40,944 nt of DNA. Origin: Oscillospiraceae bacterium (lineage in GTDB: Bacteria; Bacillota; Clostridia; Oscillospirales; Acutalibacteraceae). The DNA lies in assembly GCA_015065785.1 (NCBI GenBank), contig SVPR01000020.1, forward strand, positions 1 to 40,944. Reading direction: 5' to 3'. The notes beneath the pieces are model-generated. The model saw only the letters and a program-made list of their open reading frames with translations. It made no database searches and had not been told where the DNA came from. The first letter of the stretch is position 1; each line of letters begins with the position of its first letter. The translations under genes and the position numbers were made by a program. Positions 1 to 22,319 of the stretch are shown here, one piece after another.

Positions 1-307
1 AAAAGTTAAAAATGAAAAATTAAAAATTTCGGAACTGCGTTGGCAATTATAATTAAATAACAAAAAGTTAAGTTCTATCATTTAAAGTTTTTTGTAAACC
101 CCAAATGATAGAACTTTTTCTGTTCACCGATTCCTATTTCCTGTTTCCTGACCACTGGTATAAATGATAGAACTTGTTGTTTTTATTGAATAATAATTAT
201 AATTAAGTCCGCAGGACTTCCTTAATTCAGCACTCAGCACTCAGCATTCAGCACTTTTCTGTTTCCTGCTTTCTGCTTTCTGTTTCCTTAAATTATTTTG
301 TAATAAT
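1..307. repeat. Intergenic region with period-7 tandem repeats and a mini-hairpin
   Basis: No gene is visible here. Positions 1-28 are four heptamers of the AAAAATT type. Positions 131-151 are three TTCCTRW-like heptamers. Positions 205-219 form a hairpin (AAGTCC, loop GCA, GGACTT), followed by CCTTAATT at 220-227. Next come four YTCAGCA heptamers at 226-253 and five TTYCTGY-like heptamers at 256-290. The order hairpin, CCTTAATT, heptamers recurs at 21442-21491 and 22271-22319 with different heptamer sequences, so this looks like one copy of a dispersed intergenic element. Function is unknown. Confidence 0.7.
70..175. repeat. 14-bp inverted repeat with a third direct copy
   Basis: AAGTTCTATCATTT at 70-83 is perfectly inverted as AAATGATAGAACTT at 103-116, with a 19-nt loop and TTTT after the second arm. 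The second-arm sequence occurs again at 162-175 in the same orientation. The first two arms could form a terminator for a gene upstream of the window. The third copy is not explained by that and may be a remnant of a duplicated element. Confidence 0.6.
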
Positions 308-309
308 CA

Positions 310-338
310 TTGAAAAATATAATATTTTATGCTACAAT
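310..338 (+). promoter_or_regulatory. Promoter of the GH109/kinase/GH4 operon
   Basis: TTGAAA (310-315), a 17-nt spacer and TACAAT (333-338), with TG one base before the -10 box (extended -10). It lies 29 nt before the ATG at 368 and fits a sigma-A promoter. Confidence 0.65.
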
Positions 339-367
339 AAATCCAAATGTGTTAGTAGGTGATTTTT

Positions 368-1630
368 ATGGCAAACAAAGTACAAAGAATTGGTTTTATT
401 GGTATCAGCGGCAGAGGCTCAAGCATGCTCGACTTACTTCTTCAGGTTGAGGGAGTAGTAGTTCCTGCTGTTTGTGACCTTATCGTTGAGAGAGCAGAAA
501 AGGGTATTGAAATTGTTGAAAACAGAAACAATAAAGAGTATCCTGTAACTGCTTACCTTGATTATAAAGAAATGTTCCAGAATGAAGAGCTTGACGCAGT
601 TTTAATTGCAACAACCTGGATTACACACTCACGCATTGCAGTTGATGCAATGAAAGCAGGTCTTCATGTTGCTATGGAGGTTGGCGGTGCGGCGTCAATT
701 GAAGAGTGCTGGCAGTTAGTCAGAACAAGTGAAGAAACAGGCAAAATTTGTATGCTTCTTGAAAACTGCTGTTATGACAGAAACGAAATGGCTGTTTTCA
801 ATATGGTAAGTAAAGGTCTTTTAGGCGAAATTATTCACCTTGAGGGTGGCTACCGTCACGATTTAAGAGATGAAATCGTTTTAGGCAGAGAAAATATCCA
901 CGGCAGACTCTTTAACTTTATGATGCGTAACGGTGAGCTTTATCCTACTCACCAATTAGGCCCAATCGCAAAGCTCATCGGTATTAACCGTGGTAACCGC
1001 TTTGTTTCGCTTTCATCTGTTTCAAGCAAATCAAAGGGTCTTAATGTGTGGATTAAAGAAAATAAGGGCGAAGATTACGACCTTTATGGCACAGACTTTA
1101 ACTGCGGTGATGTTACAACAACAATCATCAAATGTGCTAACGGTGAAACAATCACATTAAATCACGACTGTTGCTTACCAAGACCATATTCAAGAGATTA
1201 TATGGTACAGGGTACAAAGGGTATCTATGAAGAAGCACCAGACGGTTACGGCAGAATTTACATAGAAGGTCAATCAGAAAAGCAACACGAGTGGGATAGC
1301 TTTAAAACCTGGAGAGAAAAATATGAGCATCCTCTCTGGCAGGCTTATGAAAATGACGGTATTAAAGCAGGTCACGGCGGTATGGACTTCTTAGTTCTTT
1401 CAGCTTATGTTGATAGCTTAAATCACGGCAGTTCACCTATTGATGTTTATGACACTGCTGCCTGGATGGCAGTTACTTGCCTTTCTGAGCAATCTGTTGC
1501 GTTAGGTGGTGCACCTGTTGCATTCCCTGACTTTACAAATGGTAAATGGATTGACAGAGAGCCATACAGAAAAGGTACATATTGCTTAAACGAAGTTTGT
1601 GAAGTAAGTGAAGAGCATAAGGAGAAATAA
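368..1630 (+). CDS. Gfo/Idh/MocA-fold glycosidase, GH109-like (alpha-N-acetylgalactosaminidase type)
   Basis: Probable NAD-dependent glycosidase of 420 aa. An N-terminal Rossmann fold (IGFIGISGRG, residues about 8-17) belongs to the Gfo/Idh/MocA superfamily. The dehydrogenase EKP signature is replaced by EVGGA (about residue 103). The downstream motifs PTHQLGP (about 195) and GHGGMDF (about 336) are those I associate with GH109. GH109 enzymes use bound NAD+ in a transient oxidation mechanism to cleave alpha-GalNAc. No signal or Tat peptide is seen, so it is probably cytoplasmic. The start is the ATG at 368, because AGGTGAT lies just upstream; a GTG at 359 is in frame but overlaps that ribosome site. 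It is the first gene of an operon with a sugar kinase and a GH4 enzyme. Substrate is inferred; other GH109-like activities are possible. Confidence 0.8.
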   Translation: MANKVQRIGFIGISGRGSSMLDLLLQVEGVVVPAVCDLIVERAEKGIEIVENRNNKEYPVTAYLDYKEMFQNEELDAVLIATTWITHSRIAVDAMKAGLHVAMEVGGAASIEECWQLVRTSEETGKICMLLENCCYDRNEMAVFNMVSKGLLGEIIHLEGGYRHDLRDEIVLGRENIHGRLFNFMMRNGELYPTHQLGPIAKLIGINRGNRFVSLSSVSSKSKGLNVWIKENKGEDYDLYGTDFNCGDVTTTIIKCANGETITLNHDCCLPRPYSRDYMVQGTKGIYEEAPDGYGRIYIEGQSEKQHEWDSFKTWREKYEHPLWQAYENDGIKAGHGGMDFLVLSAYVDSLNHGSSPIDVYDTAAWMAVTCLSEQSVALGGAPVAFPDFTNGKWIDREPYRKGTYCLNEVCEVSEEHKEK

Positions 1631-1632
1631 TT

Positions 1633-2568
1633 ATGAAATTTTATATTGGTGTTGACGGTGGCGGAACAAAAACCGCATTTGCACTTTTTGATGAAAATAA
1701 AAATATGTTAGAGCTTCACGAGGGTCCTGCTTCTAACCACGAGAATATGGAAGGCTCATTCCCACAGGCTGCTGATATTATTACTGCCGGTGTTGACGAG
1801 CTTCTTAAAAAGACAGGTAAAACCCGTGATGATATTACTGAAATGCTTATGGGTCTTGCAGGTATTGACCACCCATATCAGCACGATGCAATGTGCGAGG
1901 AATTAACAAAACGCGGTCTTAAAAATTTCAGAATTTATAATGACGGCTTCATTGTTATAAAAGCAGGTGGCAAGGCTGGTGCCGGTATTGGCTACAACTG
2001 CGGTACAGGCACTTGCTGTAACTCAATTGATAGTCGCGGTGAAATGCTCCAGATTGGTGGCTTTGACCGTCTTTCAGGCGATAAGGGTAACGGTCACTGG
2101 GTTGCAAATGAAACATTCAGAATTGTTTATGACGATGTTTGCTTAGGTAAGCGAGAAAGCAAAATTACAAAAATGCTTACTGAAAAGCTTGGCATTAAAG
2201 ACAGAGAAACTTTACTTGATTCAATTCAGATTATTGAAGACGAAGAAAAGAGCGAAGCATTTATTCGTGTTCTTATTGGTAGCTTCTTTGAGGCTGCAAA
2301 CCAAGGTGATGAAGCAGCACTTGAGGTTATTGAAGAAATGGCACAGCGTGGTGCAGACTTCATTGCCGGTCACATTAAAAAGATGCAGTTCGACGAAGAA
2401 ACAGTAAATGTTGTTCTTTCAGGCTCAATGCACACTAAGCTCCCATCTGACATTTACATTAACAGAATGGGCGAATTACTTCTTGAAAAAACAGATAAAA
2501 AATATAATTTTATTAAGCTTTCAGCAGCACCTGTAACAGGTTGCATTAACTGGATGTTAGAAGACTGA
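1633..2568 (+). CDS. BadF/BadG/BcrA/BcrD-family sugar kinase (N-acetylglucosamine kinase-like)
   Basis: ASKHA-fold kinase of 311 aa, close to the usual length of NagK-like N-acetylhexosamine kinases. The phosphate-1 loop GVDGGGTKTAF is at residues 6-16 and a second glycine-rich loop (GYNCGTGTC) is near 118-126. GGFDRLSGDKGNGHW near 138-152 is the conserved BadF/NagK segment. By family it would phosphorylate an amino sugar with ATP in the cytoplasm. It begins 2 nt after the preceding stop with AAGGAG as ribosome site, so the genes are co-transcribed. Between two glycosidases, its likely job is to phosphorylate a released or imported N-acetylhexosamine. The exact sugar cannot be read from sequence. 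Confidence 0.8.
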   Translation: MKFYIGVDGGGTKTAFALFDENKNMLELHEGPASNHENMEGSFPQAADIITAGVDELLKKTGKTRDDITEMLMGLAGIDHPYQHDAMCEELTKRGLKNFRIYNDGFIVIKAGGKAGAGIGYNCGTGTCCNSIDSRGEMLQIGGFDRLSGDKGNGHWVANETFRIVYDDVCLGKRESKITKMLTEKLGIKDRETLLDSIQIIEDEEKSEAFIRVLIGSFFEAANQGDEAALEVIEEMAQRGADFIAGHIKKMQFDEETVNVVLSGSMHTKLPSDIYINRMGELLLEKTDKKYNFIKLSAAPVTGCINWMLED

Positions 2569-2604
2569 TTTTGAATTAAAATTACTTTTAAAGGACTGAT
2601 ATAA

Positions 2605-3888
2605 ATGAAAGAAATCAATGTTACAGTTATCGGTTCAGGTAGTACATATTGCCCTGAGCTTATCTATGGCTTTATTGAAGCAAAGGATTCATTAAAGCTT
2701 AAAAGAGTTGCTTTTATGGATATTGATGAAAGAAAAAGAGAAATCGTAGGCTCTCTTTGTGTTCGTATGCTTAAAAGTGCAGGAATTGACTGCGAGGTTG
2801 TAATGACAGATGACCTTGATTTAGCTTTACAGGGTGCAGATTTCGTTGTTACTCAGATTCGTGTTGGTAAGCTTCCTTGCCGTCATATTGATGAGTCAAT
2901 CCCGCTTAAGCACGACCTTATCGGTCAGGAAACAACAGGTATCGGCGGTTTCTTCAAAGCACTCAGAACTATTCCTGTTATGGCTCACATTGCAGAAAGA
3001 ATTGAAGCAATTTGCCCGAATGCTTGGCTTATTAACTTCACTAACCCATCAGGTATTATTTCTGAATTCCTTATTAACCACACAAATGTAAAAACAATGG
3101 GTCTTTGCAATGTTCCGATTGCTATGATTGATGATGTTAAAGCGGCAGTTGGTGAGGATGCAAAAATTACATATTTAGGTCTTAACCACTTAAGCTGGAT
3201 TACTTCTGTTAAAGTGAATGGTGTTGAAAACATCGACAAAATCTTTGACGATGATTTTGCACCAACAGTTATGAAAAATATTCACGATGATGGCTTCGAT
3301 ATGGAATGTCTTAACGCTTGTAAGGGCTTCCCGTCATCATATCTTCAATATTACTACAGCCGTCAGGCAAAATTACAGCACTTAAAGGCTGGCTCAAAAA
3401 GCAGAGCACAAGTTTGTATGGAAATTGAAGAACAGCTTCTCGAATTATACAGCGATAACGAGCTTGTAATTAAACCTGCACTTCTTGAAGAACGCGGTGG
3501 CTACAAATATTCACTTGCAGCAGTTTCACTTATTGATGCTATTGCAAATGACAAGCAAGAGGTTCATGTTGTTAATATCAAAAACAACGGTACTCTTAAA
3601 TTTATGGACGATGACGATATTGTTGAAATTGCAGCAGTTATTGGTGCAGATGGTGCAAAACCGGTAGAAATTGAAGAATTCAATAACCGTCACATTATAA
3701 GCTTAATGAGAACAGTTAAATCTTATGAGAAATACACAGTTGAGGCAGCAATGAAAGGCTCTGACGAGGATGCTCTCAATGCACTTATGCTTCACCCACT
3801 TTGCGGTGACTTTGCTCAGGCAAAGGCTTGCTATGAAGAAATGAAAGCGGCTCATAAGGCATATCTTCCACAATTCTTTAAAGACTGA
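2605..3888 (+). CDS. Glycoside hydrolase family 4 (6-phospho-alpha/beta-glycosidase type)
   Basis: 427 aa, normal GH4 length. It has an N-terminal NAD-binding segment (VTVIGSGSTYCPEL, residues about 6-19), GQETTG near 107 and FTNPSG near 145. CNVP near 168 supplies the metal-ligand cysteine and GLNHLSW near 191 supplies the metal-ligand histidine. GH4 enzymes use NAD+ and a divalent metal (often Mn2+) for redox-assisted cleavage, usually of 6-phosphorylated glycosides in the cytoplasm. Being third in an operon after a sugar kinase agrees with a phosphorylated substrate. Family assignment is firm; anomeric preference is not determined. Confidence 0.88.
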   Translation: MKEINVTVIGSGSTYCPELIYGFIEAKDSLKLKRVAFMDIDERKREIVGSLCVRMLKSAGIDCEVVMTDDLDLALQGADFVVTQIRVGKLPCRHIDESIPLKHDLIGQETTGIGGFFKALRTIPVMAHIAERIEAICPNAWLINFTNPSGIISEFLINHTNVKTMGLCNVPIAMIDDVKAAVGEDAKITYLGLNHLSWITSVKVNGVENIDKIFDDDFAPTVMKNIHDDGFDMECLNACKGFPSSYLQYYYSRQAKLQHLKAGSKSRAQVCMEIEEQLLELYSDNELVIKPALLEERGGYKYSLAAVSLIDAIANDKQEVHVVNIKNNGTLKFMDDDDIVEIAAVIGADGAKPVEIEEFNNRHIISLMRTVKSYEKYTVEAAMKGSDEDALNALMLHPLCGDFAQAKACYEEMKAAHKAYLPQFFKD

Positions 3889-3903
3889 TAAACGGAGAAT
3901 ATT

Positions 3904-4521
3904 ATGGCAGAAAATAAAAAGAAAAAATCAAATGTAGCGGACGCTGCTTTTAAAAAAAAGGTAACAATAATAAACGGTTGCATTCTTTTAGCGTTTATTA
4001 TTGCACTTGTTTCATTTTTGATTTATACAGTTGCAAATGAAGAAACCTACCAGGAACGCTTTGAAGCTCAGGTTGAGTCGGCAAAGCAGGCGGCAAAGGT
4101 TACTGATAGTGACAAAAGTGTAATTGATATTGATGTTACTGACGAAATGTTTGTCGATTGGCTTGTTGAAATTGATGAATCATATCATCATCACAGCCAC
4201 GGTGACGAAGATGCCGAAGAGCGTAGCGAAAACGCAGAAACAGCTTGTTTTGAGGGTAACACAATTCATTTGCAGGGCGTTTTTGAGATTGTTCCGACAG
4301 GTCAGACGACTGAAGAATATTGGGTTTACCGCAAATACATAGATGTAGAGGGCGGCGAAAACAAAGTGCCTATTGAGGTGCAGTTTGAGGGCGAAATACC
4401 CGAAAACGGTGCCTGGGTAGATGTTGTTGGTATAATAGGCTCTGATAACGGACTTTCTTGCATAAAAGATGCAAAAATTACTGTTTTAGACAGTGAAGAA
4501 ATGCGTGAATTTGTAAAGTGA
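3904..4521 (+). CDS. Single-pass membrane protein with a DUF1980/TIGR03943-like C-terminal domain
   Basis: 205 aa. A Lys-rich N-terminus is followed by one hydrophobic segment (about residues 20-42), then an acidic extracytoplasmic part. A His/Asp-rich patch (YHHHSHGDED) lies near residues 97-106. The C-terminal 90 residues contain GVFEIVPTG and GAWVDVVGIIG. By eye these resemble the C-terminal domain of TIGR03943/YcgQ-like proteins, but without its cysteines; this match is tentative. It starts 15 nt after the GH4 gene with CGGAG as ribosome site and ends before a strong terminator, so it is the last gene of the sugar operon. Function unknown; the His patch could bind metal. Confidence 0.6.
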   Translation: MAENKKKKSNVADAAFKKKVTIINGCILLAFIIALVSFLIYTVANEETYQERFEAQVESAKQAAKVTDSDKSVIDIDVTDEMFVDWLVEIDESYHHHSHGDEDAEERSENAETACFEGNTIHLQGVFEIVPTGQTTEEYWVYRKYIDVEGGENKVPIEVQFEGEIPENGAWVDVVGIIGSDNGLSCIKDAKITVLDSEEMREFVK

Positions 4522-4534
4522 TTTTTTATAAAAA

Positions 4535-4569
4535 GGTGTATGAAATAACAATTTTCATACACCTTTTTT
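4535..4569 (+). terminator. Rho-independent terminator of the sugar operon
   Basis: An 11-bp perfect stem (GGTGTATGAAA at 4535-4545, TTTCATACACC at 4553-4563) is followed by TTTTTT, 13 nt after the stop codon of the membrane-protein gene. Confidence 0.9.
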
Positions 4570-4580
4570 CTTTAGTTTTT

Positions 4581-4609
4581 TTGTTTTCGTAGAATAATAT
4601 TATTATAGA
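4581..4609 (+). promoter_or_regulatory. Probable promoter of the glycerophosphotransferase-SGNH gene
   Basis: TTGTTT (4581-4586), a 17-nt spacer and TATAGA (4604-4609), about 28 nt before the TTG start at 4637. The match to consensus is moderate. Confidence 0.45.
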
Positions 4610-4636
4610 CTACTTTTATATTCTGAGGTGTTAATT

Positions 4637-7291
4637 TTGAGATTTTCTGTTTATAAATCAATGCTCGATATGTGCAATACATTAAAAGAAGCAGTTTCTT
4701 ATATGTATGAAAATAATAGTACCGATTTAGTCACTGGTTGCCTTGATATGCTTGTGTCAATCAGCTCTACAATATCTGAATATAATATAACTGATATTGA
4801 ATCAATACTCGTTCTTTCAGATGAACTTAATTCTCAAAATCTGAACTTACCTGAAATATATAATAAAATTGCTGATTTGGAAAATGAAATAAAAGCGAAG
4901 GCAAAATATAAATTACATATACTTTTTGTAGCAGAGCTTGCCGGTAAATGGGATTCTATGGCAAGTGTTTATGAGGCTATGAAAAAGCGCGATGATTGCG
5001 AGGTTGAAGTCGTAATACAACCTATTTTCAGAGCAGTAAAAATGCCTGATGGCAGTGTTAAGAGTGATGTTATTTTAAACGATTACTTAACACCTATGGG
5101 TATTTCTAATATTCCGTATGACCAGTATGATTTTTCTCAGAAGTTGCCTGATATTACATTCTTCAGTCAGCCTTACGAAAGTTGTACAATAGAAAAATTC
5201 TGGCCTGAAAATATGGCACAATTTACAAGAGTTGTTTATTTGCCGTATTACACTGCGAGAACGGTTAATAAAAACCTCAGTAGTGCTACATATCACTCTT
5301 TTTTTAAATCAAATACAGAAAAATTCTCGTGGAAAATAGCGGCGCAATCTGCGAAAATGCAGATGCATTATAAAAATATAGGTTCCCAAAAAGGTGAAAA
5401 TGTTATAGTTACAGGTTTGCCTAAATGGGATTCCCCGTTGCATATTGTAAAAGAAAACACACCTTGTCCTGAAGATTGGAAATCAAAAATAGAGGGTAGA
5501 AAAGTTTTCCTCTGGAATACGCACTTTAATCTGGAATTGGATGTAAAATTATATGTTGAAAGATGCAATGAAATTATTTCTATATTCAAAAAGAATAAAA
5601 AAATTGCACTTATATGGCGTCCGCATCCGATGACCGAAACCATTGTTAAATTATATCACCCTGAATTTAAAAAGGATTTTGAAGCTTTGAAAAATTCTGT
5701 GATTAATGCAGAAAATATGATGATGGATACAAATCCGACTTATGATGCAGGTTTTGTTTATTCAGATGCTTTGATTTCTAACTACAGTTCTTTAGCTGAC
5801 CAGTATATTTTGTTAGATAAACCGGTTTTAATAACTACTTTTCAACCAATTGCAGAAGCTCGTGAATATTACGCAACAACTGATGGGCTGTACGATATGG
5901 GGTTGTTACCTCTTGCTTACGCAAAGAACGATAAAAAAGACTTTATTGATAAAATAGCAAACGGTATTGATGAATGGGCTGCTAAGAGAAAAGAGTTTTT
6001 AAATGAGTACTTCGCTCTGGCGGATGGTAATTGTGGTGAAAGAGTTGCGAAGAAAATTTTAGATGACTTTAGAGAAGAAAATGAAGATAAAGAGATTGAA
6101 ATAAACCCTGCAAAAACAGTGTTGATTGTTGGTAATATTAAAGACAGTGAACTTTGTGTTAAACAGTTACAGAAAAATGGTGTTGCCGTTACTTTTGCAA
6201 AAGAATTTTTATATAGTGAAGAATGTCAGTACGAAACTGTGTCACTTTTTAGCGTTACAGAAAATCAGTTTGATTTATTTGTAGTAACCGACAGAAGTTC
6301 AAATCTCGTAATAGATATGCTTAAAACCGAGATAGGTATTAAAAATGAAAAAATAATATCTTTCTGGCAGCTTTACAAAGCATCTTTGCCGACAAGAGTT
6401 TGTGACAGAATTATGCTCAACCCGTCTCACAGTACTTATGATGGTGTAATTTTGGGGTTTAGCAATGTAGAGGTTGGTATAATTCCATCGCAGTTGAAAG
6501 CGGATTTCTGCAATCTCGCTATTTCTTCACAGGATATTTTTTATAATCTTAAAACGCTTGAATATTGTTATGAAAACTATTACGAGAAACTCAAAAATTT
6601 AAAATATGCAATAGTTGATTTACATGACTATAACTATTTTAATTTTGACACCTCAAAGTCTGTGTCGGCAGTTAAATATTTGGGCTTTGGCGGATATGAT
6701 CTCGACGAGCATAATTTTGCAAAGAATAAAAATTATGATGGTGAATATTCAGCGTATGTTGAAAGAATTGAAAATTTAAAATTTGATGGTTTAAATGAAG
6801 TTAATGTTGCTCAATGGTCGGTGAATTTCCCTGATGTTCACGAGCTTGACAATTTTGCAGGCTTTTGCTCAATGTTTGGTGATTTGAGTATAAGAAAGAG
6901 CATTGTTACTGACCAGCATATTGAAAGTTATGGCTATGACAGAGCAAGTGCGGTTAAAGTTTTTGAAGAAACCGTCAAAGAAAATGTGGGCTATTTAGAG
7001 AACCTGTTACAGTTATTATTAAAAATCAATCCTGAAATGAAGATTTACTTAACTGTTTTACCAAAATTTGTAGAGGTTGAAACGCGTGACGCCCAGCATA
7101 TATTAAAGCATAAAAATTTGTTCTATGAGATAATTGAAAAGCTTGGTCAGAAATTTGATTTTGAATTTTTAGATTTCAAAAAGATTTCTGATATAATGTA
7201 TAACAGAAATTATTTCTTTGATGCAAATCATCTTAATTACTATGGGGCTATGCGGTTAACCGAAGAATTAAATAATATAATATTTAATTAA
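4637..7291 (+). CDS. CDP-glycerol-type glycerophosphotransferase fused to a C-terminal SGNH-like domain
   Basis: About 884 aa. After a helical N-terminus, residues about 90-490 look like the TagB/TagF glycerophosphotransferase fold. Support comes from IWRPHPM and SDALISNYSSLADQYILLDK, the family's nucleotide and acceptor signatures. A second segment from about residue 490 begins with TVLIVGNIKDSE. It then shows GVILGFSNVEVGI (about 603), a Ser-containing block like SGNH block I, and near the C-terminus FFDANHLNYYGA (about 862), the Asp-His block of SGNH hydrolases and acyltransferases. No signal peptide is seen. The start chosen is TTG 4637, because GAGGTG lies 6 nt upstream; a GTG at 4628 is in frame. 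It faces the convergent polymer genes. Inferred role: polymerising or attaching phosphodiester-linked alditol units, with the SGNH part possibly handling an acyl substituent. Confidence 0.75.
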   Translation: MRFSVYKSMLDMCNTLKEAVSYMYENNSTDLVTGCLDMLVSISSTISEYNITDIESILVLSDELNSQNLNLPEIYNKIADLENEIKAKAKYKLHILFVAELAGKWDSMASVYEAMKKRDDCEVEVVIQPIFRAVKMPDGSVKSDVILNDYLTPMGISNIPYDQYDFSQKLPDITFFSQPYESCTIEKFWPENMAQFTRVVYLPYYTARTVNKNLSSATYHSFFKSNTEKFSWKIAAQSAKMQMHYKNIGSQKGENVIVTGLPKWDSPLHIVKENTPCPEDWKSKIEGRKVFLWNTHFNLELDVKLYVERCNEIISIFKKNKKIALIWRPHPMTETIVKLYHPEFKKDFEALKNSVINAENMMMDTNPTYDAGFVYSDALISNYSSLADQYILLDKPVLITTFQPIAEAREYYATTDGLYDMGLLPLAYAKNDKKDFIDKIANGIDEWAAKRKEFLNEYFALADGNCGERVAKKILDDFREENEDKEIEINPAKTVLIVGNIKDSELCVKQLQKNGVAVTFAKEFLYSEECQYETVSLFSVTENQFDLFVVTDRSSNLVIDMLKTEIGIKNEKIISFWQLYKASLPTRVCDRIMLNPSHSTYDGVILGFSNVEVGIIPSQLKADFCNLAISSQDIFYNLKTLEYCYENYYEKLKNLKYAIVDLHDYNYFNFDTSKSVSAVKYLGFGGYDLDEHNFAKNKNYDGEYSAYVERIENLKFDGLNEVNVAQWSVNFPDVHELDNFAGFCSMFGDLSIRKSIVTDQHIESYGYDRASAVKVFEETVKENVGYLENLLQLLLKINPEMKIYLTVLPKFVEVETRDAQHILKHKNLFYEIIEKLGQKFDFEFLDFKKISDIMYNRNYFFDANHLNYYGAMRLTEELNNIIFN

Positions 7292-7318
7292 GTTGTAAAA
7301 TTGAATGAATTTTATTAT

Positions 7319-7357
7319 AAAAATAAAGCAACCACTTATTGAGGTTGCTTTATTTTT
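7319..7357. terminator. Bidirectional terminator between convergent genes
   Basis: AAATAAAGCAACC (7321-7333) and its complement GGTTGCTTTATTT (7343-7355) form a 13-bp stem with T or A runs on both sides. It serves the gene ending at 7291 and the minus-strand gene ending at 7356. Confidence 0.88.
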
Positions 7358-8474: not shown

Positions 8475-8479
8475 GGGTT

Positions 8480-11337: not shown

Positions 11338-11348
11338 AAATGACACCT

Positions 11349-12689: not shown

Positions 12690-12727
12690 CCCACTTTAAA
12701 GATTTAGAGTAGTAACAAGTATATATG

Positions 12728-12757: not shown

Positions 12758-12784
12758 AATTGCACTTTGTGATAGGTGTTGCTT

Positions 12785-14134: not shown

Positions 14135-14143
14135 AAAGTCACC

Positions 14144-14995: not shown

Positions 14996-15019
14996 TTCTA
15001 ATATACCTTCAATTTACAA

Positions 15020-15895
15020 TTATTTTATGTAGAGGTCTGCATAAATAGGGAAGTGGTCAGAAACATATTTTCCGTCTATACCTGCAGTTACTACTCTATA
15101 AGTATCGGCAGAAAATTTGTTGTTAATCATAACATAATCAATAATTGATTTTTCTTGCTCAGATGGGTGTACATCGTGATATGTAAGGTAATTTACTGTG
15201 TTTGGCGCTTTATATTTAGTGTCATACATAAGGCCTGAATTTACAAATTGAAGATAATTCTCTTCACCCTCTAAAATATTCATATCTGCTGTGAATACTG
15301 CAGGAATATTTTCATATTCTTTAAGCTTATTGAGCATTATTTCTACACCGTTTCTACGAGCTAAAACACCAATATGGTCAAGGTGAGTATTAACATGTAC
15401 ATATTTTTCGTTAGTTTCTTTATTCCTTAAAACTGCCCAGGTGCAAATTCTGGTACAAGCTGCGTCCCAGCCTTTAGATTCCTTGTGAGGAGTTTCTGAG
15501 AGCCAGAAGTTTCCGCTTTCTTCCACCTCATATTTATCTTTTTTATAAAAGATTGAAGAATATTCGCCTTCGTCTTCACGAGGGATTCCGACATAGTCAT
15601 ATTTATCACCGAGTGCATCCTTTAAATAGTCCATCCATTCGGGTGTTGCTTCCTGAAGCCCGACAGAATCAGGGTCGCCTTTTAAAATTGTTTCACTTAC
15701 AAGCGGGTAGCGTGATTCAGCAGTCTGAACACCTACACCTGAACAGCGAATGTTAAAAGACATTATTCTGATTACATCATCTTTTTTAGGAAGAAAATCA
15801 AAAATTTTATCTTCAGGAACTAATTCAATTTCGCCACTTTCAATATTGGCTTTAATAAGCTCGTCAATTTGTTGCATCTCTTTTTCAGTTAACAT
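15020..15895 (-). CDS. Endonuclease/exonuclease/phosphatase-family hydrolase
   Basis: About 291 aa. The EEP fold is shown in order by IMSFNIRCSG (Asn), GLQEATPEW (metal-ligand Glu), NTHLDHIG, TADMN and the C-terminal SDHFPIYADL (catalytic His). Small cytoplasmic members act as phosphodiesterases or phosphatases on nucleic acids or lipid and sugar phosphates; the substrate cannot be chosen here. The ATG at 15895 (MLTEKEMQQ) is preferred; extending to 15943 would add a poorly conserved leader over the promoter. First gene of the operon with the patatin and fucosidase genes. Confidence 0.85.
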   Translation of the reverse strand: MLTEKEMQQIDELIKANIESGEIELVPEDKIFDFLPKKDDVIRIMSFNIRCSGVGVQTAESRYPLVSETILKGDPDSVGLQEATPEWMDYLKDALGDKYDYVGIPREDEGEYSSIFYKKDKYEVEESGNFWLSETPHKESKGWDAACTRICTWAVLRNKETNEKYVHVNTHLDHIGVLARRNGVEIMLNKLKEYENIPAVFTADMNILEGEENYLQFVNSGLMYDTKYKAPNTVNYLTYHDVHPSEQEKSIIDYVMINNKFSADTYRVVTAGIDGKYVSDHFPIYADLYIK

Positions 15896-15931
15896 CACAT
15901 TCACACTCTTTTTAATAAATTTATATGGGAA

Positions 15932-15960
15932 ATTATAGCACAATTTTAATTGATAGTAAA
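15932..15960 (-). promoter_or_regulatory. Promoter of the EEP-patatin-fucosidase operon
   Basis: Minus strand: TTTACT (15955-15960), a 17-nt spacer and TATAAT (15932-15937), with TG one base before the -10 box (extended -10). It lies 36 nt before the ATG at 15895, supporting the shorter start. Confidence 0.7.
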
Positions 15961-15996
15961 GAGCAATAAAAGTGCTTTAAAAGATATAAATTTATA

Positions 15997-16025
15997 TTGA
16001 CTTTGAAGTCATATATCAGTAAAAT
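15997..16025 (+). promoter_or_regulatory. ABC exporter promoter with an overlapping palindrome
   Basis: TTGACT (15997-16002), a 17-nt spacer and TAAAAT (16020-16025). The inverted repeat TGACTT-TG-AAGTCA (15998-16011) overlaps the -35 box, and the octamer ATATATCA occurs at 16011-16018 and 16033-16040. The palindrome is placed like a repressor operator; that role is inferred. Confidence 0.6.
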
Positions 16026-16060
16026 AGTAGCAATATATCAGAGATTTACGGAGAGAAAAA

Positions 16061-17896
16061 ATGCAAGAAGCAAAAGAAAAAAAGGCGCGTGAGAAAGCGT
16101 ATATAATAAAAAATACGGCTTTTATGCTGAAAAGTGCTTTCAAATGTGCGCCAATATCACTTTTTATAATATATTTTTCTTACATTGCAGAAAATGTTTA
16201 TTATGCAGTTGTAATAAATGTAATGTTTCTTGAAACAGCACTTTCTATTATAGAGGGCAACGGCACATTTCAGGAATTTGTAATAAGAATCGGTATTATT
16301 GTTTTAGGTAAAATTCTCGTTGACCTTATAGGCTACATAGATGTTTACACCGTAAGAATTAAATTTGAAATCAAGTGTGAAAGCTATCTTAATTCGCTCA
16401 TATTCAAAAAAGCACAAGAGGTTGAGCTGGGCTGTTACGAAAACCCCGAATTTTTTGACAAGTATAACCGTGCAACCTGGGTAATAGACAGAGGTGGCTT
16501 CAAGAGAATTATCGAGGGCTCTGCCTGGACCTTGGGCTCTGTTGTAAGCTTAGTGCTTCTTGTGAGCTATCTTATTTCGATTGACCCTGTTTTAATTGTA
16601 TTTGTATTGTGTCCTGTTGCAGTTGTTGCTTTCAGAGTATTAAAAAATAATTTAGAGCTTCAAAAAGAAAAGGATATGACACCTTACGAAAGACAGAAGG
16701 ATTATGTAAGACGAACAATTCTTCTTAAAGATTTTGCTAAGGAAATTAAAACTACAAATATATTTGTGGTTATGGAAAAACGCTTTCGTCAGGCAATAGA
16801 AAAGAATATTGGCGTAATAAAAAAATACGGGTGGAAAATTGCATTACTTGAGATTTTTTCTGACTACTTTGCAGAAATTATTCCTGTCACAGGTGGCTTT
16901 ATTTACGGCTGCTACAGACTTATAGTTGTGCAGGATATTCCTGTTTCAGAATTTTCCGTGCTGGTGTCTGCCATAACAACCTGCAGAAATAAAATAAATC
17001 AATTAGCCTATTATTTCGCAATGCAACAAAAGCATTGCTTATGGGTGCAGAATTTAAGAGAGTTTTTAGAGTATGAAACACAAATTCAAAGCGGTGACAA
17101 AATCCCGGATGAGTTTGAAAGCCTTGAATTTAAAAATGTTTCTTTTAAATATAAAGAGGATATGGATTACATTTTAAAAAATGTATCCTTTACAATTGAA
17201 AAAGGAGAAACCATTGCAGTCGTTGGACACAATGGTGCGGGTAAAACTACACTTTCAAAGCTTCTTATGCGTTTTTATGATGTTTCTGAGGGTGAAATTC
17301 TTTATAACGGAATAAACATAAAAGAATATGATTTAATTAAATATCGTGAAAAATTTGCTTCAGTTTTTCAGGATTATAAAGTGTTTGCAATGACTGTTTC
17401 TGAAAATGTTTTGACAGAAGAGGTTACAGCTGAAAACAAAGAAATAGCTGTGAATGCTCTTAAAATGGCTGGTGCTTATAAAAAAATAGGCAAGCTTCCC
17501 GAAAAGGAAAACTCACTTCTTACTAAAGAATTTGACAAAGATGGTGTTCTGCTTTCCGGTGGCGAAACACAAAAGGTTACAATTGCCCGTCTTTTTGCAA
17601 GAGATTTTTCTGTTGCGGTTCTTGATGAGCCATCTTCAGCACTTGACCCTGTTGCAGAAAGCAAAATGTACGACGCTCTTATTGAGGGTACAAAGGGTAA
17701 AACTGTTATTTATATTTCTCACCGCCTTTCAAGCGCTACTAATTCAGATAAAATTCTTGTCTTTAATAACGGTGAGTTAGTAGAGCAGGGTAATCACTCA
17801 GAGCTTATGGAAAAGGGTGGAGAATACAGCGAGATGTTCACACTTCAGGCATCAGGTTACACTCAGAATGAGGAGGTGTGTGAAGATGAAGAATAA
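16061..17896 (+). CDS. ABC transporter, fused membrane and ATPase domains (half 1)
   Basis: 611 aa type I exporter half-transporter. The first ~320 residues hold several hydrophobic segments (permease), followed by an ATPase domain: Walker A GHNGAGKTT (about 388-396), signature LSGGE (about 497), Walker B VAVLDEPSSALD (about 518) and H-loop ISHRLSS (about 553). All catalytic motifs are intact. The next gene overlaps by 11 nt and encodes a second half, so they probably form a heterodimer. The substrate (peptide, lipid or drug) is not evident. The start ATG at 16061 has GGAGAG upstream. Confidence 0.9.
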   Translation: MQEAKEKKAREKAYIIKNTAFMLKSAFKCAPISLFIIYFSYIAENVYYAVVINVMFLETALSIIEGNGTFQEFVIRIGIIVLGKILVDLIGYIDVYTVRIKFEIKCESYLNSLIFKKAQEVELGCYENPEFFDKYNRATWVIDRGGFKRIIEGSAWTLGSVVSLVLLVSYLISIDPVLIVFVLCPVAVVAFRVLKNNLELQKEKDMTPYERQKDYVRRTILLKDFAKEIKTTNIFVVMEKRFRQAIEKNIGVIKKYGWKIALLEIFSDYFAEIIPVTGGFIYGCYRLIVVQDIPVSEFSVLVSAITTCRNKINQLAYYFAMQQKHCLWVQNLREFLEYETQIQSGDKIPDEFESLEFKNVSFKYKEDMDYILKNVSFTIEKGETIAVVGHNGAGKTTLSKLLMRFYDVSEGEILYNGINIKEYDLIKYREKFASVFQDYKVFAMTVSENVLTEEVTAENKEIAVNALKMAGAYKKIGKLPEKENSLLTKEFDKDGVLLSGGETQKVTIARLFARDFSVAVLDEPSSALDPVAESKMYDALIEGTKGKTVIYISHRLSSATNSDKILVFNNGELVEQGNHSELMEKGGEYSEMFTLQASGYTQNEEVCEDEE

Positions 17897-19676
17897 AGCA
17901 GGAGAAAAAATCAGTTCATTTAAAAACTATGTTTATATGCTTAAGTTCATAAGCAAACACACACCACTTTTAGTTGTCGGGTATTTGCTTATAGATGTTC
18001 TCGCCAATCTTCCGTGGACACTTTCTAATGTTGTTTTGCTTAAATATATATTAGATGTAGTAGCAGAAGGCACAGGTTATGAAAGAATTGTTTTTGCACT
18101 TTTGTTTTTTGTGGTGTTTGTTGTTATAACAAATCTTTTCACAACATTGTTTTACGAGATTTCTATGCCGAAGCAAAAAGAAAAATTGTACTTTGCAATT
18201 TATAAAACAATTTATGAAAAAGCCGCAAAGATGGATTACGAAGCTTATGACAATCCGGAATATTACAATGACCTTGTTCTTGCGATGAATTCTATGAATG
18301 AAAGAGCGTATGCAGTTCTTTCAAATACGCAGGATATTTTCACTCATATAATAGGAATTGCAACCATAGGTGCAGTTATTATTTCAATTGACCCTATTTG
18401 CCTTTTATTTGTGGCATTGTGCGTTGCGTTTATGATTCCGGTAGGCAGAGTAATTGCAAAAATCAATGTTAAAAGAACCGAAGCAATGATTCCGCTTGAC
18501 AGAAAGAATTTATATTTCAGTCGCGTGTTTTATCTTCAGGATTACGCAAAGGAATTGCGTCTTTCAGGTGCTGGTGAAATGATTGAAAGAAGATATAATA
18601 AAAATATCTTTGACAGAATTGAAACTATTTCACCTTACCTTGCAAAGCAATGGAAGCTGTATTTTTGTCAGGAAGCATTACCAATGACACTGCTTATTTA
18701 TCTTGGTATAGCTTTGCTTATGGGTTACAAAGCAATTGTTACTGACGAAATAGGTCTTGGTGATTTTGCCGCAACATTTAATGGTGCAACATCTATAAGT
18801 AACAGTGTTTTTGCAATAACAAGTCAGTTTGCAATCCATATAAGAGAAAACGGACTTTATGTAGAAAAGTTCCGTAAGTTTATGAATGCAAAAGAAAAAA
18901 TGATTTCAGGTACAAAAACTACTGTTTACGAAAAGCCTGTAACAATTAAATTTGAAAATGTTTCTTTTAAATATCCGGGAACAGAAAAATATGTTCTTAA
19001 AAATGTAAACTTAGAAATCTCACCATATAAAAAGGTGGCTCTTGTGGGCTACAATGGTGCTGGTAAAACTACTCTTACAAATCTGCTTTTACGCCTTTAT
19101 GATGTAACCGAGGGTGCTATAACTATAAACGGCGTTGACATTAAAGAGTGGGATATAAGTGAATATCACAAAAACTTTGCCGCAGTATTTCAGGATTTTT
19201 CACTTTTCGGTGCAACAGTTGGTGAAAATATTTCTATGAACGATACACCGGATAAAGAACAGGCAGAGAAAGCGTTGGAGGCTGCAAACTTTGACAGAGA
19301 TTTGCCAAACGGAATGGACAGTATTCTTTTGAGAGAATTTGACGACGAGGGCGTTTCTGTTTCAGGTGGCGAAGCGCAGAAAATAGCAATTGCCAGAGCA
19401 TTTTATAAGGATTGCCCTTTTGCAATTCTTGACGAGCCGAGTGCTAACCTTGACCCGGTTGCAGAATATGCACTTAACCAGTCTATGACAAAAGCTGCAG
19501 ACCACAAAACAGTTATTTTTATTTCGCACAGACTTTCAACAACTGTTATGGCGGATGAAATTTATATGCTCGAAAAGGGCGAAATAATTGAACACGGCTC
19601 ACACGAGGAGCTGATGTCACTCGACGGGAAATATGCATATATGTTCCGTTTACAAGCGGAGAAGTATAAGAAGTGA
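17886..19676 (+). CDS. ABC transporter, fused membrane and ATPase domains (half 2)
   Basis: About 596 aa. The ATG at 17886 is chosen because AGGAGGTG at 17871-17878 is ideally spaced; an in-frame upstream start at 17817 would run back through that site. Permease segments occupy the first half. The ATPase part has Walker A GYNGAGKTT (about 387), signature VSGGEAQ (about 493), Walker B FAILDEPSANLD (about 512) and H-loop ISHRLST. The gene overlaps its partner and ends just before a strong terminator. Both ATP sites look catalytically competent, unlike many heterodimers with one degenerate site. Confidence 0.9.
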   Translation: MKNKAGEKISSFKNYVYMLKFISKHTPLLVVGYLLIDVLANLPWTLSNVVLLKYILDVVAEGTGYERIVFALLFFVVFVVITNLFTTLFYEISMPKQKEKLYFAIYKTIYEKAAKMDYEAYDNPEYYNDLVLAMNSMNERAYAVLSNTQDIFTHIIGIATIGAVIISIDPICLLFVALCVAFMIPVGRVIAKINVKRTEAMIPLDRKNLYFSRVFYLQDYAKELRLSGAGEMIERRYNKNIFDRIETISPYLAKQWKLYFCQEALPMTLLIYLGIALLMGYKAIVTDEIGLGDFAATFNGATSISNSVFAITSQFAIHIRENGLYVEKFRKFMNAKEKMISGTKTTVYEKPVTIKFENVSFKYPGTEKYVLKNVNLEISPYKKVALVGYNGAGKTTLTNLLLRLYDVTEGAITINGVDIKEWDISEYHKNFAAVFQDFSLFGATVGENISMNDTPDKEQAEKALEAANFDRDLPNGMDSILLREFDDEGVSVSGGEAQKIAIARAFYKDCPFAILDEPSANLDPVAEYALNQSMTKAADHKTVIFISHRLSTTVMADEIYMLEKGEIIEHGSHEELMSLDGKYAYMFRLQAEKYKK

Positions 19677-19683
19677 TTAAAGA

Positions 19684-19712
19684 AAAACCACTTGCAAAGG
19701 CAAGTGGTTTTT
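19684..19712. terminator. Bidirectional terminator between the ABC exporter and the Imm26-like gene
   Basis: CCACTTGC (19688-19695), loop AAAG, GCAAGTGG (19700-19707), with flanking A and T runs. It lies 8 nt after the ABC stop and just beyond the convergent gene's stop. Confidence 0.9.
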
Positions 19713-19715
19713 GTA

Positions 19716-20789
19716 TTATAAGCCGAACTGTTTTTTGATTTGCAGTAATTTGTCTTTGTGTTTCGGGTTGCGTAAATCTCCGTTTAACCAATGATAGTAG
19801 TATAAATCCCAATAAGGTTTGTTGGATTTTTCTTCAACGCATTTTTGTAAGACTTCAATGGTAAAATTCAGACAAAAAGAAACACCGTTGCGCCTAAAGC
19901 CACCGTATATTTCTGTTTCGTTGTCAATTTTTCTGAATACCTTGCCACATTGATAGCATACCGCTTTTTCACCAAAATGGATGCTGTTGCCATACATTAC
20001 GGGATAGTCCTCATTTTCGGTAACCGGCAGATTCCCTATAATTTCATATTCGCCATAAAACAACGAATTATCAGCGATAATTGTTGAAGGTAGTGAGCCA
20101 AGACGCTGCAACTCGTCAAGTGAAACATCGTCCCGATCCGTAACAATATGATATACGCTGCAAACCAAAGGTTTACTCATAAGAATATCCCAGAAAGGCT
20201 CGTTCAATTTTCTCATTTTATCATAATCAAGCAAAATTCTTCCGTAGCCATATTGTCGGCGACCTATTTTAAAACGAAATACATCGCCCTCGTTATATTT
20301 TATGTGTCTGCGTTTTTGCTGGGATAAAAGAGAAAACTCTTGTTTGTCAGCATCTGTGGTTTCGTTGCACCACTTCTCAACCCATTCAGAAAACTGATTT
20401 ATGTTATGAACTGTTTCGTTGAGATAAGCATTGGAGTAATAACAGGAGTTTAATTTGTCATTGTACAATGATATGTTTTTATAGCCATAGTAAAGAGACA
20501 TTCCTATACCAGTTCTTTTGCTTAATGTTGAAGTTGATAAAATAACAGGCTTACCTTTTTCTGTTTTTGGAAGTAAATATTTTTTGTCTGGCGAAACTTT
20601 TTCAGAAAGTTCATATTCATAATAATACGACTCTCCTGACATAATGCACTTTACAATTACATTATTATCAATATAAACATATGTTTCAAAATTGTCGTTA
20701 GCATTTTTTGGCAACTGAAGACATTCCAAGTGTTTAGGAATTTTTTTGAGCCCAAAACATTCTCTTTGGTCATTCGTTAACATAAACAT
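19716..20789 (-). CDS. Protein with an Imm26-like domain (possible polymorphic-toxin immunity)
   Basis: 357 aa, no signal peptide or membrane segment. Residues about 163-280, starting with EGDVFRFKIGRRQYGYGRIL, resemble by eye the Imm26 immunity-protein family, including GEYEIIGNLP. A CYQCGK pair lies near residue 275 and a Trp/Tyr-rich C-terminus (WDLYYYHWLNGDLRNP) follows. The N-terminal 160 residues are not recognised. Imm26 members are predicted immunity proteins in toxin loci, but no toxin gene is adjacent. GGTGG lies about 8-12 nt before the ATG at 20789. Alternatively it is a stand-alone protein of unknown function using the same fold. Confidence 0.6.
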   Translation of the reverse strand: MFMLTNDQRECFGLKKIPKHLECLQLPKNANDNFETYVYIDNNVIVKCIMSGESYYYEYELSEKVSPDKKYLLPKTEKGKPVILSTSTLSKRTGIGMSLYYGYKNISLYNDKLNSCYYSNAYLNETVHNINQFSEWVEKWCNETTDADKQEFSLLSQQKRRHIKYNEGDVFRFKIGRRQYGYGRILLDYDKMRKLNEPFWDILMSKPLVCSVYHIVTDRDDVSLDELQRLGSLPSTIIADNSLFYGEYEIIGNLPVTENEDYPVMYGNSIHFGEKAVCYQCGKVFRKIDNETEIYGGFRRNGVSFCLNFTIEVLQKCVEEKSNKPYWDLYYYHWLNGDLRNPKHKDKLLQIKKQFGL

Positions 20790-20863
20790 ACTTATTCACC
20801 ACCAATGGTAAGTTTATCATAAGATAGGAGAGAATGCAAATACAATTGATTTGTCGGTCACAA

Positions 20864-21038
20864 ATGAAATATTTGCCTTATGCAAATATGAAATAATTTA
20901 CTTCGTAAATTGTGAAATTTTCTGCTAAAGCAGAAAGTGAAATAAAATTCGCCTTTTACATTTGCGAAGCAAATATTTCATAGCGAAGCTATTTCACATT
21001 ACGAAGTAATATTTCACTCGCCGCAAGGCGAATTTCAT
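20864..21038. repeat. Array of seven small palindromes separated by 7-nt RTGAAAT/ATTTCAY linkers
   Basis: The left half has linkers ATGAAAT (20864, 20888) and GTGAAAT (20912, 20937) around stems ATTTGC/GCAAAT (20871-20887), AATTTAC/GTAAATT (20895-20911) and TTTCTGC/GCAGAAA (20919-20936). The right half has stems ATTTGC/GCAAAT (20960-20974), ATAGC/GCTAT (20980-20992), ATTAC/GTAAT (20998-21010) and TCGCC/GGCGA (21018-21031). These are each followed by ATTTCAT or ATTTCAC (20975, 20991, 21011, 21032). Most loops are GAA or TTC. The linkers are reversed between halves, so the whole array is itself symmetric. No coding potential is seen. Confidence 0.85.
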
Positions 21039-21040
21039 TG

Positions 21041-21070
21041 AAAAAAGCACTTCTTACGAAGTGCTTTTTT
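21041..21070 (-). terminator. Terminator of tmRNA
   Basis: AAAAAAGCACTTC and GAAGTGCTTTTTT form a near-perfect stem around a short loop, starting 2 nt beyond the tmRNA CCA end on the minus strand. The flanking A and T runs would also make it work on the plus strand. Confidence 0.88.
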
Positions 21071-21071
21071 C

Positions 21072-21422
21072 TGGTGGAGATGGCGAGATTCGAACTCGCG
21101 TCCGAAGACCTATTCCCCAAACCTTCTACGAGCGTAGTTTATCTTTTAAGCTTCCCCTTTAAAATCGCCGATAAACAGGCTAAATTAAAGGGTAGCCCTT
21201 TAAGTCCGTACAAGCTACAAGGCTCTCACTTGTGCCGGTGCACCGCTAAGATGACACCCTTAACTGAATCGCGGTAGTTTCAGTCAGGATGAGCCGCCAT
21301 TAAGCAGCAGCTAAAACTGTTTTATTATTGTCAGTTATTTTTAAGTTGTGACTTTTATAGTGGTGCCACTCCACTGCTCGCTTATCTGGGTTCAAAATCC
21401 CCGTCGAAATCCTTTCATCCCC
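21072..21422 (-). ncRNA. ssrA: tmRNA (transfer-messenger RNA)
   Basis: 351 nt. The 5' end GGGGATG pairs with CATCTCC before the encoded ACCA at the 3' end. The T-arm GTTCGAATC is intact. The internal reading frame ends ...DNNKTVLAAA with stop TAA at 21302-21300, giving the degradation tag an LAAA end. Reading back, codons ACT, ATA and AAA precede GAC, but the resume codon is not certain. tmRNA rescues stalled ribosomes with SmpB, which is encoded about 0.9 kb upstream on the same strand. No clear promoter is visible; a period-7 repeat element starts about 20 nt upstream of the 5' end. Confidence 0.95.
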
Positions 21423-21441
21423 ATATTTCGCTTTCGCTCAA

Positions 21442-21491
21442 GTGAAGAGTGAAAAGTGAATAGTGAAGAATTAAGGGGACGCTGTGCGTCC
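21442..21491 (-). repeat. Heptamer-CCTTAATT-hairpin element upstream of tmRNA
   Basis: Plus strand: four exact GTGAANA heptamers (21442-21469), AATTAAGG (the complement of CCTTAATT), then hairpin GGACGC-TGT-GCGTCC (21477-21491). Read on the minus strand the order is hairpin, CCTTAATT, heptamers, as at 205-253 and 22271-22319. CGCTTCGCG at about 21501-21509 adds a further small palindrome. Confidence 0.75.
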
Positions 21492-21516
21492 GATTGTATT
21501 CGCTTCGCGTTTGATT

Positions 21517-22095
21517 TTATTCTATGGTAATAGAAACAGTAGTGTTATCGTCACTGACAACATTGAGTATTTCTCCGGTTGCTCCGTTTTCGACAAGAGT
21601 AAGTATTTCGTCAAACTTAATATTGTCAATAGCACCATTGCCTATTATACCTGAAATACCATTACCTATTTTAGCAAACTTTTTAATCATTGACAAGGGG
21701 AGGGAAACATTTACCGGATTTTGATTTTGCCTTATAACATTGATATTTATTTTCAGGTTTGAAGTATCAACATTATTGTGTTTTTCTTTTTGAGCCTTAT
21801 CTTTTTTGCCTGTGAGAAGTTCATCGGTTGTCATATCAAGTATTTCTGCAATTTTAGGTAAAAGCTGAATATCAGGACAAGAAATATCATTTTCCCATTT
21901 TGAAACTGCTTGTGCAGTTACATCAAGCAGTTGTGAAAATTGTTCTTGCGTATAGCCTTTAGATTTTCTTGCTTGTGAAATTCTTGAGCCAATTGTTTTT
22001 GTAGCATCTTGCTGTTCAGTAGTTTCACTTGTTTCATTTTTGTTTTGTTTTTCATCATACTCATTTGAAATAAAGTTTTTGAAAAAAATTGCCAT
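21517..22095 (-). CDS. XRE-family transcriptional regulator with a C-terminal SHOCT-like/YvlB-like domain
   Basis: 192 aa. A low-complexity N-terminal segment (about 1-34) precedes a Cro/C1-type helix-turn-helix (IGSRISQARKSKGYTQEQFS to DMTTDELLTGKK, about 35-97). The C-terminal part (NVSLPLSMIKKFAKIG, then FDEILTLVENGATGEILNV and VSITIE) resembles the regulatory domain of YvlB/LiaX-like and SHOCT-like proteins linked to envelope stress; this match is by eye. GGAGA precedes the ATG. The palindrome GGTAC-GAT-GTACC (22112-22124) lies 16 nt before the start, in a position suited to autoregulation. It is on the tmRNA strand, between ssrA and smpB. Confidence 0.8.
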   Translation of the reverse strand: MAIFFKNFISNEYDEKQNKNETSETTEQQDATKTIGSRISQARKSKGYTQEQFSQLLDVTAQAVSKWENDISCPDIQLLPKIAEILDMTTDELLTGKKDKAQKEKHNNVDTSNLKININVIRQNQNPVNVSLPLSMIKKFAKIGNGISGIIGNGAIDNIKFDEILTLVENGATGEILNVVSDDNTTVSITIE

Positions 22096-22111
22096 TGTTC
22101 ATTCTCCTTTT

Positions 22112-22124
22112 GGTACGATGTACC
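22112..22124. promoter_or_regulatory. Possible operator for the XRE regulator
   Basis: Perfect inverted repeat GGTAC-GAT-GTACC in the 5' leader of the XRE gene, next to its ribosome binding site. Binding by the XRE protein is an inference from position. Confidence 0.4.
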
Positions 22125-22270
22125 GTTTTTTGTAACTTCATTTTAACGCCAAATGAAAAAATAATGAAGATAACAAAGGTTGAAACAAGTAAAATTCATT
22201 AAACTATTGGTTGATTTTTCCGTTAAATTAACTTAACTGATGGTTTAATAGTCTGATTTCGCTAAATAAT

Positions 22271-22319
22271 AGCGTCGCAGACCCTTAATTTTCAATTTTC
22301 AATTTTAAATTTTTAATTC
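22271..22319 (-). repeat. Hairpin-CCTTAATT-heptamer element abutting smpB
   Basis: GTC-GCA-GAC (22274-22282), CCTTAATT (22283-22290) and five heptamers (TTAATTT, TCAATTT twice, TAAATTT, TTAATTC) to 22319. The repeat runs into the 3' end of smpB, whose stop codon (22313-22315) lies inside the last heptamer. The rest of 22125-22270 holds no recognisable gene. Confidence 0.7.

Follow-up and report, generated by a model that had tools for sequence, protein, structure and literature searches.

Period-7 repeat arrays of an Oscillospiraceae genome as probable gene-less members of a PF05635 mobile-element family

Two groups of described elements are close to the repeats reported here. These repeats, each with a small hairpin, a junction word and a tandem array of 7-nt units, occur in the first 40,944 bases (the window) of contig C14 (SVPR01000020.1) in the 2.24-Mb, 83.6% complete draft genome of an Oscillospiraceae bacterium. 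The first group comprises the intervening sequences of 23S rRNA that carry an S23/IVP gene. The PF05635/TIGR02436 protein family and inverted terminal repeats are common to these and to the present elements. Tandem heptamers are likewise shared: in the available part of PMC4990558, the Coxiella element is described with three tandem GACAGAT heptamers before the gene and a 28-bp terminal inverted repeat. In contrast to that group, the copies reported here are intergenic and many are gene-less, and a five-unit rule with element-specific heptamers is not described in the available text of that literature. A classical 23S intervening sequence was rejected, as the insertions examined sit between protein genes or beside transfer-messenger RNA (tmRNA) and not inside 23S rRNA.

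The second group comprises the heptamer repeats of cyanobacteria and other bacteria, and the short tandemly repeated repetitive (STRR) sequences are counted among the cyanobacterial ones. According to the accessible portions of the sources, the trnL class I/II repeats (TDNGATT and NNTGAGT; PMC4476775), GGGGA(C/T)T, GGGAATC, TAACTGA and GTGATTA likewise have a period of 7 and are mostly intergenic and dispersed; unlike the present elements, they are presented there without a tie to a gene family, an inverted partner or a unit number. From the same kind of partial text, an excess of heptamers has been noted without a settled cause (PMC4692102), and MacGregor considered a TAACTGA-binding protein as a possible mobile element (PMC4679880). 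Among eight heptamers as they appear in these excerpts (TAACTGA, GGGAATC, GGGGATT, GGGGACT, GTGATTA, TDNGATT, NNTGAGT and GACAGAT), A[A/G]T, hereafter ART, is contained in seven and AG on one strand in the eighth. By hand count, ART is expected in about 36% of heptamers.

The arrays of the window probably belong, as gene-less members, to a family of small mobile elements, in the coding form of which one PF05635 gene lies between two inverted arms. Association of arms with this gene was found in many phyla, together with a mode of five units, matching of the two arms of an element, gene-less and empty alleles, and resident genes for the three large classes of arrays. An order of hairpin, CCTTAATT and period-7 array had been described at three loci in the initial annotation, and it is present at 205-256, 21441-21491 (minus strand) and 22274-22321. 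Further period-7 runs were recovered by a sequence scan at 1-28, 131-150 and 256-286. The features are as follows.

1-28, plus strand: left arm of composite element 1, truncated at the contig end with four ART units remaining
33-41, minus strand: mini-hairpin, GCA loop on the minus strand (from the sequence)
70-116, no strand: core hairpin of the gene-less composite form, arms 70-90 and 96-116 (core-hairpin pattern)
131-150, minus strand: short period-7 run of the CAGGAAA class within the core (period-7 scan and sister-copy alignment)
162-175, no strand: right half of the core hairpin, second copy (sequence and sister-copy alignment)
205-219, plus strand: mini-hairpin AAGTCC-GCA-GGACTT (from the sequence)
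220-227, plus strand: junction CCTTAATT, its AATT part of the fifth unit (word count and ART-chain scan)
225-255, minus strand: right arm, five ART units, class AGTGCTG/AATGCTG, resident gene partner L382
255-288, minus strand: second array, class CAGGAAA, a chain of three, resident gene partners L091 and L387
21441-21471, plus strand: solo arm at tmRNA (site 2), five ART units, class AGTGAA, no resident gene partner found
21469-21476, minus strand: site 2 junction CCTTAATT
21477-21491, minus strand: mini-hairpin GGACGC-ACA-GCGTCC, the ACA loop being an exception to GNA
22274-22282, plus strand: mini-hairpin GTC-GCA-GAC
22283-22290, plus strand: site 3 junction CCTTAATT
22287-22318, either strand (AATT reads on both): solo arm before smpB (site 3), five AAT units, class AATTGAA, resident gene partners L380 and L381

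A simple detector, run on 441 kb of the host genome (the window and 20 stretches of 20 kb), returned 78 arrays of period 7; each of the periods 4-6 and 8-13 gave 0-7 arrays, and period 14, the double of 7, gave 54. Exactly five ARTNNNN units is the commonest design (43 of the 78 arrays). Counted by place, ART chains at spacing 7 number 13 at length four, 44 at length five and 4 at length six, and spacings 5, 6, 8, 9 and 10 contribute one five-unit place in total. Counting on both strands gives 50 five-unit chains, since AATT may count twice, and these merge into the 44 places. The arrays of all three noted loci have exactly five units; the chain length is four at 1-28, where the contig ends, and three at 255-288.

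Additionally, 38 of the 44 five-unit places have on their junction side a hairpin whose loop is GNA when taken from the T-rich strand (TNC on the strand read); where both strands show five units (5 places), the better strand was used. On the opposite side such a hairpin is found at 14 of 44 places, often from a neighbouring module. Two of the three noted sites have a GCA loop and the third has ACA. Loops of the kind C(GNA)G form unusually stable DNA mini-hairpins. The larger design seen in clusters runs from the heptamer arm through a junction (TTCGG, TGTGG or TAAGG on the A-rich strand) and a small hairpin to AATTATAATT, and often appears as an inverted pair flanking a core hairpin CTATCATTT...AAATGATAG. 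Each of the 22 core hairpins recovered has an array no more than 105 nt away, the search pattern having been derived from copies beside arrays.

The word CCTTAATT had been suggested as a conserved seed of these elements. It occurs 3 times in the window against 3.05 expected; genome-wide it has 143 occurrences, and a reversed control has 194. When its context was checked genome-wide at 16 of 30 loci, namely those with a match on the plus strand, an array adjoined 2 of the 16 matches. The junction at the 44 distinct five-unit places is AATTTCGG in 22, AATTGTGG in 8 and AATTAAGG, which equals CCTTAATT, in 4. The lack of enrichment and this minority status rule the word out as a family seed. Because its AATT is the fifth repeat unit, the supposed seed and the repeat frame are locked together.

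The gene that lies between arrays at the tmRNA-smpB sites of congeners belongs to PF05635 (23S_rRNA_IVP; S23, four-helix bundle, TIGR02436). This family was found in 20 of 22 genomes of the genus, with 11 matches in the host, one of them truncated at a contig end, and in 0 of 14 control genomes; L091, L108, L381 and L117 exceed the TIGR02436 cut-off. Arrays are present on both sides at 14 of 30 fetched PF05635 loci, counted raw, like all loci here, with no correction for kinship. In 12 of these 14, the best match of the left array is the right array of the same locus, and the mean left-right score is 20.0 vs 5.2 for swapped pairs. A scan of named genomes confirmed at least 575 relatives, and the best 80 of these, picked by protein similarity only, span Clostridia, Bacteroidota, Proteobacteria, Acidobacteria, Planctomycetes, Verrucomicrobia, Spirochaetes, candidate phyla and others. 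Within these best 80, an inverted-arm score of at least 18 was reached at 42 loci vs 3 of 400 swapped pairs and 2 of 138 same-locus controls, and in all strong flank arrays but one the best period is 7 or 8. A score of 18 is also reached by six of ten plasmid loci, of which nine are cyanobacterial and one is from Riemerella.

One stricter criterion was applied to all loci, namely inward-facing chains of at least four units on both sides. Such chains surround 63 of 113 PF05635 genes from many phyla and 1 of 912 control open reading frames (0/70 at the same named loci, 0/692 in 52 stretches of ten congeners and 1/150 in 400 kb of the host), and were not seen at 50 of the 113. These 113 are what remains of 117 loci after 4 with short flanks were set aside; L114-L116 had been omitted as the same records as L106, L089 and L086. 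Arm heptamers agree between left and right within a locus and differ between loci, and they track protein relatedness, a value as low being reached in 0 of 999 permutations (107 loci, of which 61 have an array). According to the constant letters, two subfamilies can be distinguished. In subfamily A, to which most of the loci examined belong, the units have AG in common at a fixed phase, and the arms of subfamily B, the kind behind most host arrays, carry ART. AG stands at a fixed phase in 37 of 46 strong arms. The length mode of AG chains beside PF05635 genes is five, and it is again five for period-8 AG chains of at least four units.

Several variants of the coding form were also observed. 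Period-8 arms (AG plus six letters) occur in several phyla (L140, L151, L164, L168, L181, and by eye L088 and L104). At L094, L102, L112, L384 and L386, the gene flanks as judged by eye consist of a short word (e.g. GTGATAT or GATATCATCA) alternating with small hairpins and have no tandem heptamers; these words would be tandem again once the hairpins were folded out. On cyanobacterial plasmids, PF05635 genes lie within CRISPR cas operons in operon sense (L227:683-1051, L228:689-1048 and L230:680-1036), the neighbours being cas6/cas4 twice and cas10/cmr3 once. In Anabaena sp. 90, a very long left array (L227:318-620) mixes AGGTGAC and AGGGAAC irregularly.

The 78 host arrays cluster into classes of 30, 22, 16, 4 and 2 members and four singletons, and each of the three large solo classes (68 of the 78 arrays) has a resident PF05635 gene of near-identical heptamer. 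Two resident elements match 16 and 13 arrays at no more than one mismatch, and of 17 elements from other genomes, 14 match none or one array and three match 13, 6 and 4. Arrays also accompany five of the nine remaining resident matches, their heptamers being AGAGTGC/AATGCAG, AAATTAA, AATTGAA, AATGCTG and GCAGAAA; with these added, each large solo class has a resident gene. The window arrays at 225-255, 255-288 and 22287-22318 have heptamers in common with resident coding elements. Moreover, the junction and GNA hairpin modules of the solo copies are also found beside genes, at L380, L381, L382 and L110.

Comparison of orthologous sites, the check proposed with the initial annotation, revealed empty, gene-less and gene-bearing forms at the same sites in relatives. 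At the tmRNA-smpB junction of 14 congeners, a gene lies between two inverted arrays in G005, G016, G017 and G008 (broken in G008), the others have solo arrays, and G014 and G003 have only about 33 bp. Site 3 is missing in all four congeners with the same neighbour genes (G020, G007, G006 and G011). At the cmk site, G020 has a gene with AGTGAGG arms, G017 a gene-less form of the same arm class, G008 a different array and G013 a short remnant, with 2-25 bp in the other 16 of the 19 genomes compared. The L108 site holds a subfamily A element in G015, genes of another kind in G000 and G005, a gene-less pair of AGTGCTG arms in G009 and nothing in G014. At the plasmid traM site, the gene is present in two Nostoc, including Nostoc edaphicum; Nostoc ATCC 53789 is gene-less with the same arm class and flanks 96.9% identical, and Nostoc C057 is without the element. 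Gene-bearing and gene-less alleles of one site were seen at cmk (G020 and G017) and traM (Nostoc edaphicum and ATCC 53789), both outside the window's own sites. At cas10-cmr3, Picosynechococcus PCC 7003 carries the element and PCC 7002 has an empty site (flanks 95.6%). At cas6-cas4, a Dolichospermum has no element, but unrelated sequence lies there and the site is not cleanly empty.

A near-identical sister copy of window 1-227 lies on contig C11, the first 127 bases being identical. The similarity stops at the right arm, where the sister copy carries another heptamer; arms can thus be exchanged or rewritten with the rest unchanged. Together with these alleles and with a coding form that has the same arms and hairpins, the sister copy supports the early suggestion of a mobile element with site-specific repeat content.

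Matching arms, AG or ART at an unvarying phase and a length mode of five imply that both ends may be recognised by the element's own protein. In a fold comparison, the best relatives were 2GSC, 2RLD and Avd, other helical bundles scoring lower, and two solved relatives have five chains each in the crystal entry. From these five chains and the AG-chain mode of five, we propose a pentamer reading five units. An arm most often consists of five tandem units of 7 nt (sometimes 8 nt), with AG or ART constant and the other letters element-specific. The protein would bind one unit per subunit at each arm and thereby mark the element for copying or insertion, the chemistry of which may come from host replication or repair enzymes, and GNA hairpins would bound the arms or expose them when single-stranded. 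Slippage within an arm, together with fold-back copying between arms, would be the simplest explanation of arms that are alike within an element and unlike between elements, the heptamer drifting as a block. TRAP, the trp RNA-binding attenuation protein, is a ring in which the number of (G/U)AG triplets read equals the number of subunits. It serves as an analogy only, being an unrelated protein with 11 subunits and spacers of 2-3 nt. Avd belongs to diversity-generating retroelements, and the host differs from these in having no reverse transcriptase match; such a retroelement was rejected, with no PF00078 match in the 83.6% complete genome.

Several results weigh against the mobile-element reading. 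Five chains in a crystal entry are suggestive, and no proof of a pentamer in solution. Chains of four are missing at 20 of 117 gene loci, 4 of the 11 host PF05635 genes are without an array, and the evidence for class B chains comes from 16 loci, an ART chain being present at 8. No resident partner for the site 2 array (21441) was found among the host's 11 PF05635 genes, and G003 has arrays with no PF05635 gene found in its 81% complete assembly. Array and gene density across 14 genomes are correlated at a level that is only suggestive (Spearman 0.53, p 0.052). No target-site duplication was recognisable at three congener sites (L110, L108/L085, the tmRNA-smpB site by eye being left aside) or at three plasmid sites, of which cas6-cas4 is not a clean empty site, and no fixed target was seen at the element sites compared.

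Of the other explanations, the one that survives best, though unlikely, is an RNA device, in which the arms pair as a transcript stem (cf. 23S intervening sequences and RNase III) or serve in termination or translational control, their likeness being maintained by selection on the RNA. Cyanobacterial plasmid copies inside operons, read in operon sense, would fit such a device, as would the presence of the structural relative Avd in ribonucleoproteins and the excision of classical intervening sequences as RNA, stated in the accessible part of PMC4990558. However, no excess of G-U compatible differences exists between arms. Over 82 loci, 83 transitions are compatible vs 113 incompatible (p 0.04 in the other direction), and RNA-stem selection between arms is thus unsupported.

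Next in rank, and also unlikely, is that the PF05635 gene is a passenger and that another enzyme moves the arms. Most host arrays are indeed gene-less: none of the 78 sampled adjoins a PF05635 match (none on C9, C11, C14 and C17). The G003 arrays with no gene found point the same way, and no insertion chemistry is known for the PF05635 family. However, each large solo class has a resident gene of near-identical heptamer, and heptamers follow protein relatedness.

Replication slippage alone, at hotspots marked by hairpins, preferably in steps of 7 and without a protein reader, is improbable. The initial annotation had offered a slippage hotspot with a conserved seed. The seed fell with CCTTAATT; the slippage part is compatible with tmRNA-side unit numbers that differ between congeners, and would fit as a secondary process. 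Very long arrays, up to 32.5 units beside a PF05635 gene, and the polymerase footprint proposed for the heptamer excess in the available text of PMC4692102 also favour slippage. However, the sharp mode at five, the heptamer shared by inverted partner arms, the fixed AG phase and the strong tie to one gene family speak against it as the sole cause.

It is very improbable that the elements resemble repetitive extragenic palindromes (REP) or bacterial interspersed mosaic elements (BIME) and are moved by a host REP-associated tyrosine transposase (RAYT): the host genome does contain one Y1 transposase gene, and small hairpins with a strand-specific loop would suit it, but that gene is flanked by GGGGACGG-type repeats and not by GNA hairpins with heptamers. 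REPIN/BIME systems share with the present elements small dispersed palindromes, inverted pairs and one autonomous gene family; they differ in the gene, and the elements reported here have tandem heptamer arms, the host Y1 gene having repeats of its own. Around this sole Y1 (RAYT-like) gene (L034:14619-15377 and 15380-16000), GGGGACGG/CCGTCCCC repeats were observed, and about three copies of a tandem unit of ~220 bases follow it (by eye).

Beyond the reading of the window arrays as gene-less mobile elements, a wider proposal is tentative. It is quite possible, if somewhat short of probable, that PF05635 proteins are the mobility factors of bacteria-wide mini mobile elements without a known kind of transposase. 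A pentameric ring would read five AG/ART units of 7 or 8 nt per inverted end, each element having its own heptamer dialect that co-evolves with the protein. Such elements and their remnants would then be the source of the heptamer repeats reported since 1990 (cyanobacteria, Xanthomonas, Beggiatoaceae) and of the heptamers of 23S rRNA intervening sequences. Why heptamer repeats are in excess and what the S23/four-helix-bundle proteins do are two open questions, treated apart in the literature examined; a link between them would give the repeats a candidate protein and the protein a candidate substrate. It offers a simple rule (five units, AG or ART phase, inverted partner) and accounts for one architecture with a different repeat at each site. 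If true, DNA movement would need only a small helical ring protein and host enzymes. A search made mostly without subscription journals found no work joining PF05635 to heptamer ends beyond the Coxiella note. The opinion that no named family has this design is therefore retained for the joined design in the literature searched; its pieces do have names (S23/intervening-sequence proteins; heptamer repeats of cyanobacteria and Beggiatoaceae).

Phage records gave no match to one PF05635 query, rRNA gave none in L158, L184, L125, L192 and L182 (5 of the 80 named loci), and known RNA families gave none at the elements in the window, L048, L110, L225 and L381. Two Acido-Lenti-1 RNA matches lie near the PF05635 gene of a KSB1 assembly (L158:2474-2519 and 3047-3092). 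In the window, a Gut-1 RNA (RF01706) is located at 20970-21040 on the minus strand, directly downstream of the tmRNA gene.

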